A stretch of DNA of 64,000 bases. It comes from Fistulifera solaris (taxonomy: Eukaryota; Bacillariophyta; Bacillariophyceae; Naviculales; Stauroneidaceae). Of this stretch, positions 37,085 to 53,703 are shown in pieces. Below the pieces are notes generated by a model. It did no database searches. It was given only the letters and a program-made list of their open reading frames with translations, and had not been told where the DNA came from. The stretch spans positions 558,001-622,000 of the forward strand of contig AP026150.1 of the NCBI GenBank assembly GCA_030295235.1, given 5' to 3'. The position numbers were made by a program, and so were the translations under genes. Positions within the stretch are counted from its first letter, which is position 1, and each line of letters begins with the position of its first letter.

Positions 37085-38961
37085 ATGAAACAGGCAACAG
37101 ATAAATTTGATCGCGATGATCCGTGGCATCAAGTGTTGCTGTTAGTCTTTTACGGATCAGTCAGCATGCTCTGGTTCTATTCTATTTCAAGATGGACAAA
37201 CTTAATCAACTCGCTGCAAGTCATCTACAACGATTGGGGCAGGACGCCTCTCGATCCTGTTCCAGGTCAATACGCGGAGGAACCCGTTGTGACGGTTCAA
37301 ATTGCTACCTACAATGAGGGCACCGTCGTTGGAGATTCTATTGCGAGAGCGTGTGCGCTCGATTGGCCCCGAGACAAGCTCTTCATTCAAGTTTGTGACG
37401 ACTCGACCGAGAAAGAGAGTATCGCGATCATCGAGAACTTGATAATGAGCTGGAGAGAAAAAGGTTTTAATGTCGAGCGCTTATTTCGACATGATCGAAT
37501 CGGCTATAAGGCGGGGAATCTTCAGCACAACTTTCAGTTCATCAAAGGAGATTACGTTGCATATCTGGATGCCGATCACATGGTAGAGCCTCAGTTTCTT
37601 CGCCGAACTATTCCTCACTTTTACGACGAGAGCGGAAAGGCAAAGACTCATATTGGGCTCGTACAAACACCCTGGTGCTACTACAACACACATCAGAATC
37701 TTCTCACAGAATGTGGTGAGTTGTCGCGCTCTTTCAACTCCTGGAAGGCTTGATAATAATTCTCACGTTTGATTGTTTCTCATTAGACGCTCTCGGGCTC
37801 GACATTCACCATGTTATTGAACAGGTCGGTCGATGTCGCTCGTATGATCTTTTTGGATTCAATGGCACGGGTGGAGTATGGAATAAACAAGCGGTTGAAG
37901 ACGCGGGTGGGTTTTCATGCGACACAGTCACAGAGGACTTGCTGCTGTCTTACAAGGCCTATCTTGCGGGTTACGTCTTCATGTACATACGTGACGCTCC
38001 CCAGGCTCTCGAAGTCCCAAGTTGCATTCTCGCACATGTACAGCAAAAACAACGGTGGACCAAGGGATGCTTGCAGGTACTGCGGATGCATTACAAAGAG
38101 ATCTTATGTTGCAAACAAACTTCAGTTGCTGTCAAGCTGGAGGCTTTCATGCATCTGAGCGGCCCACTTCAACTGATTGCTGCAGTGACGGCTTTGCTAA
38201 GCTGTCCCTATCTCGTTTTTAATGGAGTAGACTCTATCCTGGTCAAAGTCGTTTCTATCTTTGCTCTGATAGAGCCTTTTGTCGCTGCACTCCACGCCAT
38301 TGTATCGAAAGTCCCAGGCGAAAACGGGCACTACAAACACTGGTCGTCGAAAGTTGCGCGCACTCTGACAATTTTCCCTCATGTTGCCCTCCGATGCGGG
38401 ATGGCTCCATTTGAAGCCAAGGCGGCAGTAGAAGGAGTATTCTCGAACGATGCTACCTTCCACACTACCCCAAAGGAGGGCAGCGATTCCTCAAATTCAA
38501 ATGCAACGAAAGCCAAGAAACTCGCCCGAGCAACAGGAGACGACATTGCCGCTACTGTAGGGCTTGTTTTAGCCATTCTACAGTTCTTCAACATGTTTGA
38601 TCTTGATTTGCGTATGCTGCATTTTCTGACTTTCGATTTTGCTGTTTTTGCGCTGAACATTTTGATGAGCATCGGTCTCTTTATCGTTCCTCTGACGTTT
38701 CTAATTGCAAAGTACCCGTCGGTAGGCCTACGGGCACTCCATTCACTCGCAAAAACACGACATATTGTTCTTACGGTCTCACTGTTTGCATACATAGTCG
38801 GGTACATGACATGCTTTATGTCGGGAGATGAGGTGAGTATGTCAATGTGTTTCGTGCAATGTTCTCTCTTCGCCCAGTCTCATTCAAATTTTTGCAAATA
38901 AATCTAGATTGGTCTCGGATTCGCTGACTCGCAATCCACCAGTAGTATCAGTCGTTATTGA
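37085..38961 (+). CDS. Family 2 glycosyltransferase (CSLA/CSLC-like), stand-alone copy 1
   Basis: Exons 37085-37715, 37787-38832 and 38908-38961; introns 71 and 75 nt; 576 aa, no frame error. One helix near residues 17-34 precedes a cytosolic GT2 domain with all catalytic signatures: CDDSTEKE, DAD in YLDADHMVEP, TED, and Q(Q)KQRW. FGFNGTGGVW is typical of plant CSLA/CSLC and bacterial glucan/mannan synthases. Five helices follow. The last exon encodes only 17 residues (IGLGFADSQSTSSISRY) and a stop. It probably builds a beta-linked polysaccharide backbone from a nucleotide sugar in the Golgi; the sugar cannot be read from sequence. Exon 1 is almost identical to copy 2, exon 2 is not. Confidence 0.88.
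37124..37715 (+). repeat. Near-identical exon-1 block, copy 1
   Basis: 592 nt matching 40517-41108 with three mismatches by my reading, all changing the amino acid (Gln/Glu, Ser/Thr, Ala/Thr). Similarity drops sharply at both edges. Confidence 0.9.
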
Positions 38962-40477: not shown

Positions 40478-43400
40478 ATGACAAGAGTACCAGACTCATT
40501 CGATCATAGAGATCCCTGGCATCAAGTGTTGCTGTTAGTCTTTTACGGATCAGTCAGCATGCTCTGGTTCTATTCTATTTCAAGATGGACAAACTTAATC
40601 AACTCGCTGCAAGTCATCTACAACGATTGGGGCAGGACGCCTCTCGATCCTGTTCCAGGTGAATACGCGGAGGAACCCGTTGTGACGGTTCAAATTGCTA
40701 CCTACAATGAGGGCACCGTCGTTGGAGATACTATTGCGAGAGCGTGTGCGCTCGATTGGCCCCGAGACAAGCTCTTCATTCAAGTTTGTGACGACTCGAC
40801 CGAGAAAGAGAGTATCGCGATCATCGAGAACTTGATAATGAGCTGGAGAGAAAAAGGTTTTAATGTCGAGCGCTTATTTCGACATGATCGAATCGGCTAT
40901 AAGGCGGGGAATCTTCAGCACAACTTTCAGTTCATCAAAGGAGATTACGTTGCATATCTGGATGCCGATCACATGGTAGAGCCTCAGTTTCTTCGCCGAA
41001 CTATTCCTCACTTTTACGACGAGAGCGGAAAGACAAAGACTCATATTGGGCTCGTACAAACACCCTGGTGCTACTACAACACACATCAGAATCTTCTCAC
41101 AGAATGTGGTATGTCGACGAAATGTTTGTGCTTCTGAATTCAATCGTTTAGAAAGCTTCGATTCGATCTAACATTCTGCTTTTTTTGTAAGATGCGCTCG
41201 GGCTCGACATTCACCACGTTATTGAACAAGTCGGTCGGTGTTGCTCGTATAACATGTTCGGTTTCAATGGTACTGGCGGTGTATGGAGAAAGCAAGCGGT
41301 TGAAGACGCAGGTGGCTTTTCTTGGGATACTGTGACAGAAGACTTGTTGTTATCGTACAAGGCACATCTGGAGGGGTACGAGTTTGTTTACGTGCGAGAT
41401 GCTCCCCAAGCTCTGGAAGTACCCAGTTGCATTCTCGCTCATGTGCAACAGAAACAGCGATGGACCAAAGGGTTCATGCAGGTCCTTAGAATGTACTACA
41501 CCGACATTCTCTTCTCCAAGCAAGCGACCTTTGCAGTCAAGCTGGAGGCGCTTATGCACTTGAGCGGCCCTCTCCAACTTGTTGCTGCTATGACTGCGCT
41601 ACTAGCGTACCCCTACCTCGTTTTCCACAAAATCGATTCCTTTTTGGTCAAGATCGTATCCATCTTGGCTTTGACTGAACCCGTCGCTGCCGCAATCCAC
41701 GCCATCGTATCAAAAATCCCAGGTGAAAACGGGCACTACACGTACTGGCACTCCAAGGTAGCGCGGCTTCTAACAATTCTTCCGTACTTTGCGCTCCGTT
41801 TCGGGATGACTCCTTTTGAGACCAAAGCTATCTTTGAAGGCTTCTTCTCAGACGATGCAACCTTCCACACCACCCCTAAAGAAGGTAGTAACTCCGCAGT
41901 TTCGGCTGTAAAACGCGCCAAGAAAGTAGTGCGAACCGGAGGCGATGACATGGCTGCCGGAGTTGGGCTTTTCCTGGCAATCCATCAATTCATCTACGTC
42001 TTTGCATTCGATATGCACATGCCCTGCCACACTGTATTCGACGTGGTTGTGCGAGCGTTGAATCTTCTCATTTGCATAGGCCTCTTCACTGTATCCATAA
42101 TGTTCTTTCTTTCAAAACACCCATCTTTGGGACAGCGAGCCCTTCACTCGCTAGCCAATACGAGACATGTGTTCCTTTCGGTTGCTCTTCTAGCATACAC
42201 GGTAGGCTACATGACGTGCTTCATGTCCAGCGGCGAGGTAAGTCTTTCTGCAAGTCTCATTCAACTCTTACATTCGATATCTCACAAAATGACATTTGCA
42301 CGTAATTAGATCGATTTTTCAATAACTGAGAAGCACACCATCAATAACACAATGTTTGCAAGTAATAATGATGATGGAATCGTTTCTCCGTCAAAGGCGT
42401 TCGAAGTGATCGACACAATTCGTCCATTGGCATGCCGACCCAAGGTAGCAGCGAAAGCGTTTTCATCTGTGATCGCCCTTGGCCTGCCTCGTACGGGTTC
42501 GACTCTAATGTTCAATTTCCTGACCGAACTCGGAAAGCACTATCCGAACATCGACAACTTGAGCCTGTTCGAGACTTTTGCGCCTGTATCAACGATGCAG
42601 CTTCCCGGTCTGACGCAAATTGTCGACATTCTGAGAAGGAATTGCGACGGGCTGGAGCCTGGCGAAAAGACAATGTTCCAGCAACGATTTGACTTTCAGT
42701 CCGAACAAGAGCTGTACGAGTACCTGCGCAAGGATGGACATCCCGATATCTATGAGCCGCTTATCGCAGCCCATTCCAATAGGTACAAGGATCCGCTGAG
42801 CTGGTTGCATTATGTCGAGAGCGTACCGTCCACCGGAGATTACGGCTACGTGGAGTACAAGGTGTTCGACCACGACATGTTGGAAATCGGCATTAGCTCC
42901 CCCGAGCTGATCGACTCGATGCAATCCCCCAACACAAAGTTCGTCATCAACTACCGCCGCAACCTGCTGGAATCATACGTGTCGCAGAAAATTGCCGAAG
43001 CCAGCGGTAACTGGGTCGGAGCAAAAACGACATCGGATGACGCCATCACGATCAACCGCCAGGAATTCGAAGACTACATCAAAGCCAAGGTAACTTATTT
43101 TCAAGAGATTCGTGAGCATCTAGATGGCAAGAATATCCCGTACTCCGTCTTCGAGTACAACACCCATTTGGGAGCAGAACCTCAGCAACGAGACACGCTT
43201 CGACACTTGCAGAAGCTGCTACGTTTGCGTGTCGATGATACGATCGTCGAAGATATCATGGCCGGACTAAGAAGGAAGAAACAATCGACGGTTCCTGTCA
43301 GGGAGCAGATTCGGAACTGGGACGAAGTCGTGCAGTGGGGACTCGGCAAGGAAAAGGACGAAGATTGGGAAGACTTGTTTGCATCGGTCGATAACAGCAA

Positions 43401-44418
43401 GGCGCTTGTGGCATACCAGCCTCCTACGCAGCTTGCGTGCAAAGTCGGCGCCCCGGCGAAACCCATGTCGTCTGTGATCGCCCTTGGCCTGCCTCGTACG
43501 GGTTCGACTTTAATGTTCAATTTCCTGACCGAACTCGGAAAGCACTATCCGAACATCGACAACTTGAGCCTGTTCGAGACTTTTGCGCCTGTATCAACGA
43601 TGCAGCTTCCCGGTCTGACGCAAATTGTCGACATTCTGAGAAGGAATTGCGACGGGCTGGAGCCTGGCGAAAAGACAATGTTCCAGCAACGATTTGACTT
43701 TCAGTCCGAACAAGAGCTGTACGAGTACCTGCGCAAGGATGGACATCCCGATATCTATGAGCCGCTTATCGCAGCCCATTCCAATAGGTACAAGGATCCG
43801 CTGAGCTGGTTGCATTATGTCGAGAGCGTACCGTCCACCGGAGATTACGGCTACGTGGAGTACAAGGTGTTCGACCACGACATGTTGGAAATCGGCATTA
43901 GCTCCCCCGAGCTGATCGACTCGATGCAATCCCCCAACACAAAGTTCGTCATCAACTACCGCCGCAACCTGCTGGAATCATACGTGTCGCAGAAAATTGC
44001 CGAAGCCAGCGGTAACTGGGTCGGAGCAAAAACGACATCGGATGACGCCATCACGATCAACCGCCAGGAATTCGAAGACTACATCAAAGCCAAGGTAACT
44101 TATTTTCAAGAGATTCGTGAGCATCTAGATGGCAAGAATATCCCGTACTCCGTCTTCGAGTACAACACCCATTTGGGAGCAGAACCTCAGCAACGAGACA
44201 CGCTTCGACACTTGCAGAAGCTGCTACGTTTGCGTGTCGATGATACGATCGTCGAAGATATCATGGCCGGACTAAGAAGGAAGAAACAATCGACGGTTCC
44301 TGTCAGGGAGCAGATTCGGAACTGGGACGAAGTCGTGCAGTGGGGACTCGGCAAGGAAAAGGACGAAGATTGGGAAGATCTTTTTCCTGGCGCTTCGCAG
44401 TCTGTGTCGTTTAGATGA
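40478..44418 (+). CDS. Glycosyltransferase-sulfotransferase-sulfotransferase fusion protein
   Basis: Exons 40478-41108, 41192-42237 and 42310-44418; 1,261 aa, all junctions in frame. Residues 1-559 are a CSLA/CSLC-like GT2 enzyme: helix near 17-34, CDD at 104-106, DAD at 162-164, TED at 259-261, QKQRW at 297-301, then five helices. The second intron (GAG|GTAAGT...TTAG|ATC, phase 0) sits exactly where copy 1 has its last intron. Exon 3 continues into two sulfotransferase domains, about 612-917 and 947-1252. Each has a PAPS 5'-phosphosulfate loop (GLPRTGST at 617-624 and 952-959) and a 3'-phosphate motif (NYRRNLLESYVSQ), closest in style to Stf0/NodH carbohydrate sulfotransferases. Likely makes a polysaccharide and sulfates it. 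If unspliced, exon 3 could be a separate gene starting at 42352, only 42 nt downstream. Confidence 0.8.
40517..41108 (+). repeat. Near-identical exon-1 block, copy 2
   Basis: Partner of 37124-37715. The block ends at the last base of exon 1; the following introns are unrelated by eye and the second exons are clearly diverged. Confidence 0.9.
42466..43373 (+). repeat. Sulfotransferase tandem repeat, unit 1
   Basis: 908 nt repeated at 43471-44378 with an offset of 1,005 nt (335 codons). I find a single, synonymous mismatch (CTC/CTT context in GSTLM). Confidence 0.92.
43471..44378 (+). repeat. Sulfotransferase tandem repeat, unit 2
   Basis: Second unit. The 97-nt linker between units and the sequences outside them differ, which argues against a simple assembly duplication. 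Confidence 0.92.
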
Positions 44419-48461: not shown

Positions 48462-51400
48462 ATGACTTCTCTTCCCGCAAATTTAGACTTTCCCGCAATG
48501 GAGAGTAAAATTTGTGATGAATGGAAACAAAACGATACGTTTCAGACGCAAAATAAACTGAGTTTAGAGCGCAACGATGAGGTGTGTTTTGTTATTTGCT
48601 AATTACTGAGTCTCTTTCCTGATTTAAATGTAGACTTCTTGTCGCTTGGTTCTCCCGTTCCTGTTCTGACAGTGTCTATCCTCCATCCTCTTTCCTCATT
48701 TTCCTCTTAACACACTCACAGCGCTTTACGTTTTACGATGGTCCTCCCTTTGCGACGGGTTTGCCGCATTACGGTCACATTCTCGCCGGCACCATCAAAG
48801 ATACGGTCACGCGTTACGCTGCCATGACGGGGCATTACGTCAGTCGTCGGGCGGGTTGGGATTGTCACGGATTGCCCGTCGAGTACGAAATCGATCAGAT
48901 GCTCAACATTACGCATCGTGATCAAGTACTCGAAATGGGGATTGATAAGTACAACGATACTTGTCGCAGTATTGTTACGCGATACACGGAGGAATGGGAA
49001 ACCACGATCCTTCGTTTGGGACGCTGGATTGATTTTCAGAATGATTACAAGACGATGGACCTAGACTTTATGGAGAGTGTTTGGTGGGTGTTTCGACAGC
49101 TTTTTGACAAGCAACTCGTCTATCAAGGATACAAAGTTATGCCCTACTCGACAGCATGTACAACTCCGCTCAGTAACTTTGAAGCCGGTCTCAATTACAA
49201 GGATGTCAAGGATCCCGCCGTCGTGGTGAGTTTCCCCGTCAAGGAAGGCAATGCTAAGTTCGTCAACGCCAGTCTTCTCGCCTGGACGACGACACCATGG
49301 ACATTGCCTTCCAACTTGGCACTCTGTGTTAACCCGCAGATGGAATATGTACTTCTCACGGACAAGAAGACACAACATAAGTACATTTTGGCGAAATCGA
49401 GATTGCCGCAAATCTACGAAGCCATGAACAACAAGAAAAAGTGGAAACCGGAAATGGCCGATGATTTCTATGAAATTCATGAAAGCTTCCCTGGCACAGA
49501 GTTGGTGGGTCTGCGTTATGAGCCTTTGTTTCAGTTTTTGAATCACCAAATTACTTTCAAGTGATTTCCGACTCGTACGTGACTGACGATGCCGGTACTG
49601 GAGTGGTTCATCAAGCGCCGGCTTTTGGTGAAGACGATTACCGCGTGTGTTTGGCGCACGGAGTCATTCAGAAAGGCTCAGATATTCCTTGCCCGGTCGA
49701 TGCCAATGGAAATTTCACAGATCCAGTCGAACCCGTGAAAGGAGTGCACGTCAAGGCAGCGGATCCTACTCTCATTCAACTCATCAAAGACAAGGGTCGC
49801 TTGGTACAAAAGGCTGTTCTGGATCACAGTTATCCATTTTGCTGGAGATCGGATACTCCACTCATTTACAAAGCCGTTCCCTCGTGGTTTGTCAAAGTTG
49901 AAGAAATCCGTGATCAGGTCGTGGCTTGCAATCAAGAGACCTATTGGGTTCCGAACGAGGTTAAAGAAGGGCGTTTCCACAATTGGCTATCAGACGCACG
50001 TGATTGGGCTGTTTCGCGCAATCGCTTTTGGGGTACGCCGATTCCTATCTGGGCCAATGAAGATTTGTCGGAAGTGGTTTGCATTGGAAGTTTGGACGAA
50101 TTAGAGGAAAAAACGGGGGTCCGTGTAACAGACTTGCATCGAGAAACAGTTGATTCATTGACTATTCCCAGTCAGAAGAATCCTGGAACTGTACTAAGAC
50201 GCGTCGAAGAAGTCTTTGACTGTTGGTTCGAGTCGGGTTCGATGCCATATGCGCAAAGTCATTATCCATTTGAAGATAAAGAGGGGTGGGAAAAGGGCTT
50301 CCCGGCTGATTTTATCGCCGAGGGGTTGGATCAGACTCGTGGTTGGTTCTACACGCTCATGGTTCTCTCGACGGCCCTTTTTGGCAAGCCGGCGTTCAAG
50401 AACAACATCGTAAACGGTATGGTGTTGGCAGCCGACGGACAGAAAATGTCAAAGCGCAAGAAGAATTATCCGGATCCCAACCTCGTCATATCCAAGTACG
50501 GCGCTGACGCCCTTCGTATGTACCTAGTCAATTCACCCGTTGTTCGTGCGGAATCTTTGAAATTCAAAGAGGAAGGTGTATTGGGAGTCGTCAAAGAAGT
50601 CTTTTGCCTCTTTACAATGTGTTTAGATTCTTCTTACAAAACGTGGAACGCTGGGAAACAGAGTCAGGCATCAATTTTGTCCCGGATGCAGTTAAGGTTC
50701 GCTCCACCGAAAACGCCACTGACATTTGGATCGTCGCGGAAACACAGGGGCTCATTCAATATGTACATGCCGAGATGAAAGCCTACCGTTTGTACACAGT
50801 GATGCCCGCTTTGGTCAAATTTGGGACTCAGCTGACGAATTGGTACCTACGCCTCAACCGCGACCGTTTGAAGGGACAAGAAGGCGACGAACAGGCTGAA
50901 TCTGACACCGAGGTGGGGTTGCAAGTTCTCTACGACGTGTTACTGGACGTTTCGACGATGATGGCCCCGTTTACACCGTTCTTGACGGAGTATTTTTACC
51001 AGCATTTGCGTAAATATCAGCCATCCTATGCCGAAGCTGCCAACGGGGGAGGTACATCGAATCCCGTCAAGCCAGGCAAAAGTGACTCTATCCATTTTTT
51101 ACGTCTTCCTGACTACGATGAAACACGGCTCAATCCTAACGCGGTGGAGGCAATGGAGACATTGCAAAACATTGTGGAACAAGGTCGAAACGCACGCGAG
51201 AAGCGTAATCTCAGCCTTAAGTTCCCCATCAAAAGTGTCAAGGTCATTCTTCGAAATCCTCCCGAGCATGTTGTTACAGCGATTACTGGTCCGCTGAAGA
51301 AATACATTTTGAGCGAACTCAATGCTTGGGATCTCACTGTTGTACCAAAAGAAGAGCACCACGACTGGGTTACACTCTCGTTATCGCCAAACTTCAAAGA

Positions 51401-52379: not shown

Positions 52380-53703
52380 TCATCCAATACTTTTCGACAG
52401 GCCAATGGGAGACATGCTCTTTTCTCTCGCCATGCCGATGACTCTCCGCTTGTAGCTACTAAGCTCCAGCACCTTGAATGTACGCCCTGCACATTTTTCT
52501 CGTCTCGCCAGTAACTCTAAATCTCGTTGCATCAACGTTCCATCCTTGTCAACATCCAGTTCACGAAACATCATTCTTAGTTTATCCCATAGTTCTTCAT
52601 CAACCTTTCCCATTGTCTTAAGCATGTATTCAATAAATTCAAGTTCCGTGACATCCCCATCTTTGTCGGTGTCCATTTTTTTGAGGTCGTCTACGGTAAT
52701 TCGACTATCGAACAGCTGCGTTTGTGCCTGTTTAAGTTGCCGATCGATGAATCTATGTGCAATGGTCGCGACAACTTCCGTGACAACCGCTACCGAGAGA
52801 GGTATAAAAACAATACAGAGCCAGCGCGTCCGGTCGGAGACGGGTCGAAAATCCCCGTATCCGAGCGTGAGGGCGGTTTGAAAGGTCCAATACAAGGATT
52901 CAATCGGCGTCCATCCTTCCAGTGTCATCATGGCTACCGTTCCAGTCATCATGATAAGAAAGACTCGACACAATGGCGCAAAGAAAGTTGAATTATTGAG
53001 AAGCCACTCGTGCACAATTTCGTTATCGTCACAAAGAGCGTCCATTTCCATTGAAGCATCGTCGTGTGCCAGTTCATGTATCATTTCGGAGGCGATTTCT
53101 CCATTGCGTTTCTCCCATTTGTTCATTTGGTAGGAAATGTAAGCTTGACCGACTACACCGAGCAGCATACCTGTCATACAAACCCCACAGGCGGCGTATA
53201 ACATCGTAAATACTTTCATTGCGTCCGTCGAAGGATACAGGTCTCCATAGCCTGCAAGAAAAAGAGAATGAGGGTGATAGCGCAGTAAGAACCTGTAGGA
53301 AATAAGTCATACACGAACCTATAGTAGAAAGAGTGACCATGACAAAATAAAGAGAATCCAGAATTCTCCATCCTTCTCCAATCGCATAAATGATAGCTCC
53401 GACATTGATAAAAACGATACTCGCCAGTCCTAATGGTTTGATCACATTTACCGTAAATCTTCTTGCCGATTGTTTTGCCTCATGTAACGATGTTTGTAAG
53501 GACCGAGTCGAAGAACGTTGCTGACTGTAATGTCCATTCAAGACGGCACGTCGCACAATATTCCAGTGTCGTTGCGATCTCGTCAATCCGTCTTGCCCGG
53601 ACATCAAATTGTAGTTGCATTGACTATCATTATTATTTGTTATCTCATTGTATCTTAACGGTAAAATAGGAGGAAGAGGACCTTCCTTGGATTTGAATTG
53701 CAT
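52380..53703 (-). CDS. Two-pore-domain K+ channel with EF-hands (TPK-type)
   Basis: Exons 53703-53319 and 53251-52380; intron 67 nt; 418 aa, frame intact. The intron splits the first selectivity filter: STIG|GYGD becomes LSTIGYGDLYPS. The second filter is TLGYGDFRPVSD. Four membrane helices surround the two pore loops. The C-terminus carries two EF-hands (DTDKDGDVTELEF and DVDKDGTLMQRDL), as in plant vacuolar TPK channels that are activated by cytosolic calcium. K+ selectivity follows from the GYGD filters; tonoplast location is inferred. An in-frame ATG at 53880 would add 59 residues without recognisable features. Convergent with IleRS, 175 nt apart. Confidence 0.9.

Follow-up and report, generated by a model that had tools for sequence, protein, structure and literature searches.

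Sulfated polysaccharides are major products of diatoms. We compared with described systems the predicted product of a Fistulifera solaris gene that lies at positions 40478-44418 (+) of the 64,000-nucleotide stretch of DNA analysed here (the window) and in which a family 2 glycosyltransferase (GT2) is followed by two sulfotransferase (ST) domains. Two described sulfotransferases differ from this predicted product: Stf0 is a soluble enzyme with a small sugar as its acceptor, and NDST, the heparan sulfate N-deacetylase/N-sulfotransferase, lacks a polytopic membrane part. Stf0 of Mycobacterium smegmatis, a trehalose sulfotransferase (PDB 1tex), is the best fold match of the predicted ST model, at ~14% sequence identity. 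To judge from its entry title, NDST (PDB 8ccy, 1nst) has a deacetylase where the window gene has a glycan synthase. In the complex of Escherichia coli BcsA with a phosphoethanolamine (pEtN) transferase (PDB 9fmz, 9fmv), the entry titles describe a modifier that is a separate protein adding pEtN, whereas the window gene is predicted to encode a modifier that shares one chain with the synthase and transfers sulfate. Stramenopile glycan pathways contain fusions as well: GT74-GT2 in brown algae (PMC11468063) and an ST joined to an alpha/beta hydrolase in Nemacystus decipiens (PMC6418280). In the available portions of these two papers, GT2 or ST is fused to another domain and none of the fusions joins GT2 to ST. 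An earlier note on this DNA, made from the sequence, knew of no described protein with this domain order, and searches of an open-licence library likewise brought up no paper whose title or abstract beginning describes a GT2-ST fusion. Both halves are recognisable; as far as those searches reach, their combination and the varying number of ST repeats are new.

The GT2-ST fusion is confirmed as a predicted gene structure, and its recurrence makes it more than a quirk of the locus. We consider it probable, with room for doubt, that a single polypeptide comprising a BcsA-like GT2 synthase, an extra helix and two Stf0-like STs sulfates its own glycan as this emerges into the Golgi lumen. In brown algae, the gene set for sulfated glycan synthesis is said to remain unknown (PMC11468063, in the part available). 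A synthase-ST protein would name one gene for both steps. If the proposal is true, the protein would be a one-polypeptide counterpart of the bacterial synthase-plus-modifier complexes, with the number of ST repeats as a natural dial.

Structure and recurrence of the predicted fusion gene

The window (46% GC) holds the gene as three predicted exons in one open frame of 1261 amino acids (aa; Table 1), the splicing being a prediction from genomic DNA. Joining and translating the exons reproduced the coordinates, splice sites and phase given in the earlier note, together with the 14 ATG-less codons of exon 3, whose first in-frame Met is exon residue 15. The GT half reads DDST, DAD, TED and QQKQRW where D, DAD, TED and QxxRW had been claimed; we take these to be GT2 motifs. 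The two ST domains announced for exon 3 are also there, and they turn out to be near-identical repeats (902/906 nt, 99.6%; 301/302 aa over the compared core).

Searching the genome with GT exon 2 gave six matches, four of which are followed by ST: the window gene, on contig C37, and those on C36, C35 and C34 (these contigs, like C23 and C24 below, belong to the same genome). The two matches without ST are the tandem paralog of the window gene on C37 and its partner on C36. The gene recurs on C36, the homologous contig, where intron 2 is 71 nt long and the single open frame, 1929 aa in all, includes four ST repeats. F. solaris is an allodiploid diatom (PMC5935921), and the C36 and C37 copies may be homoeologs or alleles. 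C35 and C34 hold a diverged pair (C35 is 56.6% identical to the window gene in GT and 29.1% in ST), in which the GT2 frame runs to TCG/GTAAGT (the slash marks the exon border) and, after a 62-nt phase 0 intron matching intron 2 of the window gene in place and phase, continues in frame into one ST.

Six database proteins, P0002-P0007, also carry GT2 and ST in one chain, each with one ST by the ST profile. The alignment covers 98% of the query stretch 230-930 in five of them (P0002, P0003, P0004, P0006 and P0007) and 44% in P0005. P0002 comes from a Bacillariaceae metagenome-assembled genome. P0017-P0021, whose sources are of the same kinds (jgi, lgn, ena), seem to read into the intron, and the end of P0017 almost matches the unspliced C34 frame; proteins from these sources thus seem to be unspliced, so that P0003-P0007 are probably uninterrupted open reading frames (ORFs). 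P0007 (1468 aa), which was trimmed to its GT2-ST part for the alignments and the GT tree, has a protein-kinase-like domain ahead of GT2 and ST and, if it is one gene, would be a three-part fusion. GT2 precedes ST in all 10 fusions compared. Of the earlier interpretation, in which one polypeptide couples chain growth with sulfation, the single in-frame GT2-ST polypeptide is supported; it recurs in C36, C35, C34 and P0002-P0007.

The locus could also make two proteins, the GT2 stopping in or at intron 2 and the ST being produced from a start of its own (ATG 42352) or from its own transcript. With intron 2 retained, the GT frame ends at TAG 42307-42309, the last three intron bases and shortly before that ATG, so that retention would yield a GT-only protein; a regulated unspliced form is conceivable, and P0017-P0021 do end in apparent read-through introns. 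However, the ST exon of C35/C34 has its first Met at +72/+73, beyond the predicted 3'-phosphoadenosine 5'-phosphosulfate (PAPS) loop at +45/+46, and their open frame contains no Met upstream of the acceptor; independent translation would thus hardly yield a complete ST. Both parts stand in one protein in P0002-P0007, and intron 2 is too short to house a promoter of its own that does not overlap GT coding sequence. The Met-less stretch and the database fusions together rule out a separate ST gene as the principal explanation, and we regard two products as very improbable. An assembly artefact was also considered and discarded: forms with one ST exist in C35, C34 and P0002-P0007, so the fusion is independent of the repeat. 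On the other side of the balance, ST copy numbers of 2 and 4 rest on one assembly, although the metagenome protein P0001 too has two repeats by the ST profile (alike in 301/302 aa).

Table 1. Predicted features of the fusion gene and its tandem paralog, in window positions (slashes mark exon borders; TM, transmembrane helix)
Feature	Position	Strand	Description
Exon 1	40478..41108	+	start codon, TM1 (aa 17-35), first part of GT2 (DDST, DAD)
Intron 1, predicted	41109..41191	+	83 nt
Exon 2	41192..42237	+	remainder of GT2 (TED, QQKQRW), TM2-TM6
TM6	42169..42225	+	aa 537-555; from hydropathy; helix beyond the BcsA-like part; predicted to take the C-terminus to the lumen
Intron 2, predicted	42238..42309	+	72 nt, GAG/GTAAGT...AATTAG/AT, phase 0; links GT2 to ST in frame
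Linker TM6-ST1	42310..42450	+	sequon NNT at aa 571
Exon 3	42310..44418	+	2109 nt: linker, ST1, ST2, stop
ST domain 1	42451..43380	+	PAPS-loop motif GLPRTGST 42481-42504; RRNLLESYVS 42955-42984
ST domain 2	43456..44385	+	repeat of ST1 at +1005 nt
Tandem paralog, GT2 without ST	37085..38961	+	exons 37085-37715, 37787-38832, 38908-38961; second intron at same place and phase

Families, folds and selection in the two halves

Residues 1-559 match PF13632 at 79.8 bits (cut-off 27), PF13641 at 57.5 (27) and PF00535 at 47.1 (23.3), which places them in GT2. The earlier note labelled them CSLA/CSLC-like; by sequence, BcsA is the nearest solved synthase. The match begins just before TM1 and continues through the helices after the GT, and the predicted model of the GT part shows both a GT fold and the membrane helices known from BcsA. 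We predict that the GT half is a BcsA-like membrane synthase, whose motifs would suit processive synthesis and extrusion.

The predicted ST model has a sulfotransferase fold. Thirty columns are invariant in 8/8 ST domains, including R16, G18, S19, E43, R171 and S180 (first-row numbering); these six remain so when two bacterial NodH/Stf0-like proteins are added, and the conserved residues presumably sit at the PAPS-loop and 3'-phosphate positions. The fold and these positions agree with the earlier description of the domains as PAPS-type, and the conserved residues would suit PAPS as the donor. Profile searches weigh against the assignment, since no single ST domain reaches a Pfam cut-off. For PF13469 (Sulfotransfer_3, cut-off 27 bits), single domains score 16.3 and 16.6 bits; the exon taken from ATG 42352 onward, which includes both repeats, scores 29.3 bits and no stretch passes alone. 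For PF09037 (the Stf0 family), the cut-off is missed, only one of the eight domains matching at all (best E 0.013); the likeness in fold stands apart from this outcome. The NCBIfam model of trehalose 2-sulfotransferase gives weak matches in 3/8 domains (best E 0.0027), and a sequence search of the PDB with ST returned nothing convincing. Among 7997 candidates of the protein collection that shared most words and were scored with the ST profile, two weak bacterial Stf0-like matches were the only ones outside the fusions. In bacterial and archaeal genomes, 12 pattern matches included no relative.

The fused STs might lack catalytic activity and instead bind the chain or play a regulatory part. 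Their divergence would be in keeping with this (seven other members are 27-30% identical to the window ST), but the invariant columns, the six residues shared with bacterial proteins and a ratio of nonsynonymous to synonymous substitution rates (dN/dS) of 0.05 in ST between C36 and C37 make it most improbable. In that comparison dN/dS is 0.026 over the 559 codons of GT and, over 302 codons each, 0.051 for ST1 and 0.037 for the last ST; these estimates indicate purifying selection on both halves. Between C34 and C35, the ratios are 0.117 for GT and 0.298 for ST, and the weaker constraint on this ST (0.30 when rounded) counts against our main reading. The short linkers evolve under less constraint (0.40 and 0.37). 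Two estimates between C35 and C37 were saturated and were left unused.

Topology, proposed mechanism and product

In BcsA the GT and the C-terminus are cytosolic, and the PAPS of the Golgi is lumenal; one extra helix, TM6, would thus put ST on the far side of the membrane. In C37 and C36 hydropathy recovers the full set, TM1 ahead of the GT and TM2-TM6 behind it, and in the structural model of P0004 each of the six places is helical. Loops TM3-4 and TM5-6 carry a net positive charge in C37, C35 and P0003, as suits the cytosol, and 8/10 linkers contain a sequon where shuffling leads one to expect 3.1. P0007 starts with a hydrophobic leader and the kinase-like domain before TM1, which would suit a lumenal N-terminus. 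The number of helices, the charges of the loops and the sequons in the linker point to a GT in the cytosol and an ST in the lumen, the last helix being of low confidence. Several observations pull the other way. Hydropathy misses at least one of the six helices in each of the other eight members, and TM6 is weakly modelled in P0004 (pLDDT ~47-59; pTM 0.60); the placement of the ST therefore depends on the helix count and the topology of BcsA. A net acidic charge is found in the GT loop, and the TM2-3 loop of C37 is slightly basic. Some of the 10 linkers are closely related pairs and thus not independent cases, and chance gives the C37 linker a sequon in about half of the shuffles.

With this topology, the GT2 active site would lie in the cytosol and use nucleotide sugar on that face, TM2-TM5 would form an exit channel as in BcsA, and TM6 would place ST on the side where Golgi PAPS is available. 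The chain would be extruded past the tethered ST domains and sulfated on the exit side, and the number of ST repeats (1, 2 or 4) may affect the density of sulfation. More tentatively, and at somewhat less than even odds, we propose a co-synthetic machine that threads the chain through its own channel past a tethered lumenal row of STs, with sulfation density tuned by the number of repeats (1, 2, 4); unequal exchange would homogenise these repeats, whose number is not the same in the two homologous copies of the gene.

The polypeptide may instead be fused while its ST acts on another glycan, a glycolipid or a glycoprotein, the fusion merely co-localising ST activity. Stand-alone relatives of the ST occur without GT in the same genome, so the fold works without this GT. 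Yet the order GT2 then ST is constant although the STs of C35 and C37 are only 29% identical, and the GT parts of the fusions fall in one clade; we consider another substrate unlikely, at roughly one-in-four standing, and prefer sulfation of the protein's own glycan.

GT2 enzymes are inverting, and GDP-mannose would give a beta linkage. Diatoms are reported to exude a C6-sulfated alpha-1,3-mannan (PMC13063451, whose main text contains no sulfotransferase, glycosyltransferase, mannosyltransferase or biosynthesis words), and a diatom wall polysaccharide is reported to contain 3-linked mannose as well as glucuronic acid and sulfate (PMC4584364, in the part available). The link to sulfated mannans that had been drawn for this gene is doubtful, the reported mannan being alpha-1,3 (PMC13063451) and the expected linkage beta, and a sulfated alpha-mannan was set aside as the product for this reason. 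We speculate that a beta-glycan, or an alpha-L-fucan made from GDP-beta-L-fucose, would fit better.

Repeat number, origin and neighbouring genes

The gene copies have 1, 2 or 4 ST repeats. In C36, ST2 and ST3 are identical (906/906 nt), ST1 is 98.8% like them, and ST4 is 93.6-94.8% identical to the other three; across C36 and C37 the identity is 89.3-92.1%. These identities suggest recent homogenisation within each array.

Besides the 10 fusions and the window paralog, the 28 rows of the GT tree comprise four intron-reading ORFs and a further 13 that were picked among 120 listed of 4833 matches; bacterial rows are few, and none is a plant CSLA/CSLC sequence. All 10 fusions lie in one 16-row clade (support 100/100), together with the tandem paralog, the four intron-reading ORFs and P0022. 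The simplest account is one ancient fusion followed by loss or replacement. Two results count against it: the label 'fusion' needs 6 changes (5 forced) in this tree when the intron-reading rows and P0022 are counted as unfused, and the ST tree, which includes seven stand-alone ST stretches of near-full profile coverage from 18 frames, parts fused from stand-alone ST at 78/82 support only and is too weak for proof. The intron-reading rows may themselves stem from fusions truncated at that intron. The C-terminal part of P0022 (~300 aa) gave no match to the ST profile and none in Pfam; perhaps a different module was swapped in for ST.

Other ST matches in the genome form clusters on two homologous-looking contigs (C23:70000-88000 and C24:67000-82000), as open frames with ST and no GT, several of which contain two or more ST stretches. 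Of 18 such frames, read unspliced, none of those of at least 100 aa matched the GT half. In four of the 18, ST is preceded by one or two hydrophobic segments, which would suit membrane-anchored enzymes.

The paralog of the window gene had been said to share the intron at the same codon and phase. Place and phase 0 do agree, though the third exon of the paralog is short, with just 17 residues before the stop codon and no ST. Exon 1 is 97.0% identical between the tandem genes (612/631; 37085-37715 against 40478-41108), with 16 of the 19 differences in the first 39 alignment columns, and exon 2 only 69.8%; given this disparity, exon 1 looks like a product of gene conversion. Ten neighbouring frames of the window were scanned and held no further carbohydrate-enzyme domain. 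Open frames in the window include one with a class I tRNA synthetase domain at 49561-50778 (+) and one with an ion-channel domain and EF-hands at 52380-53219 (-).
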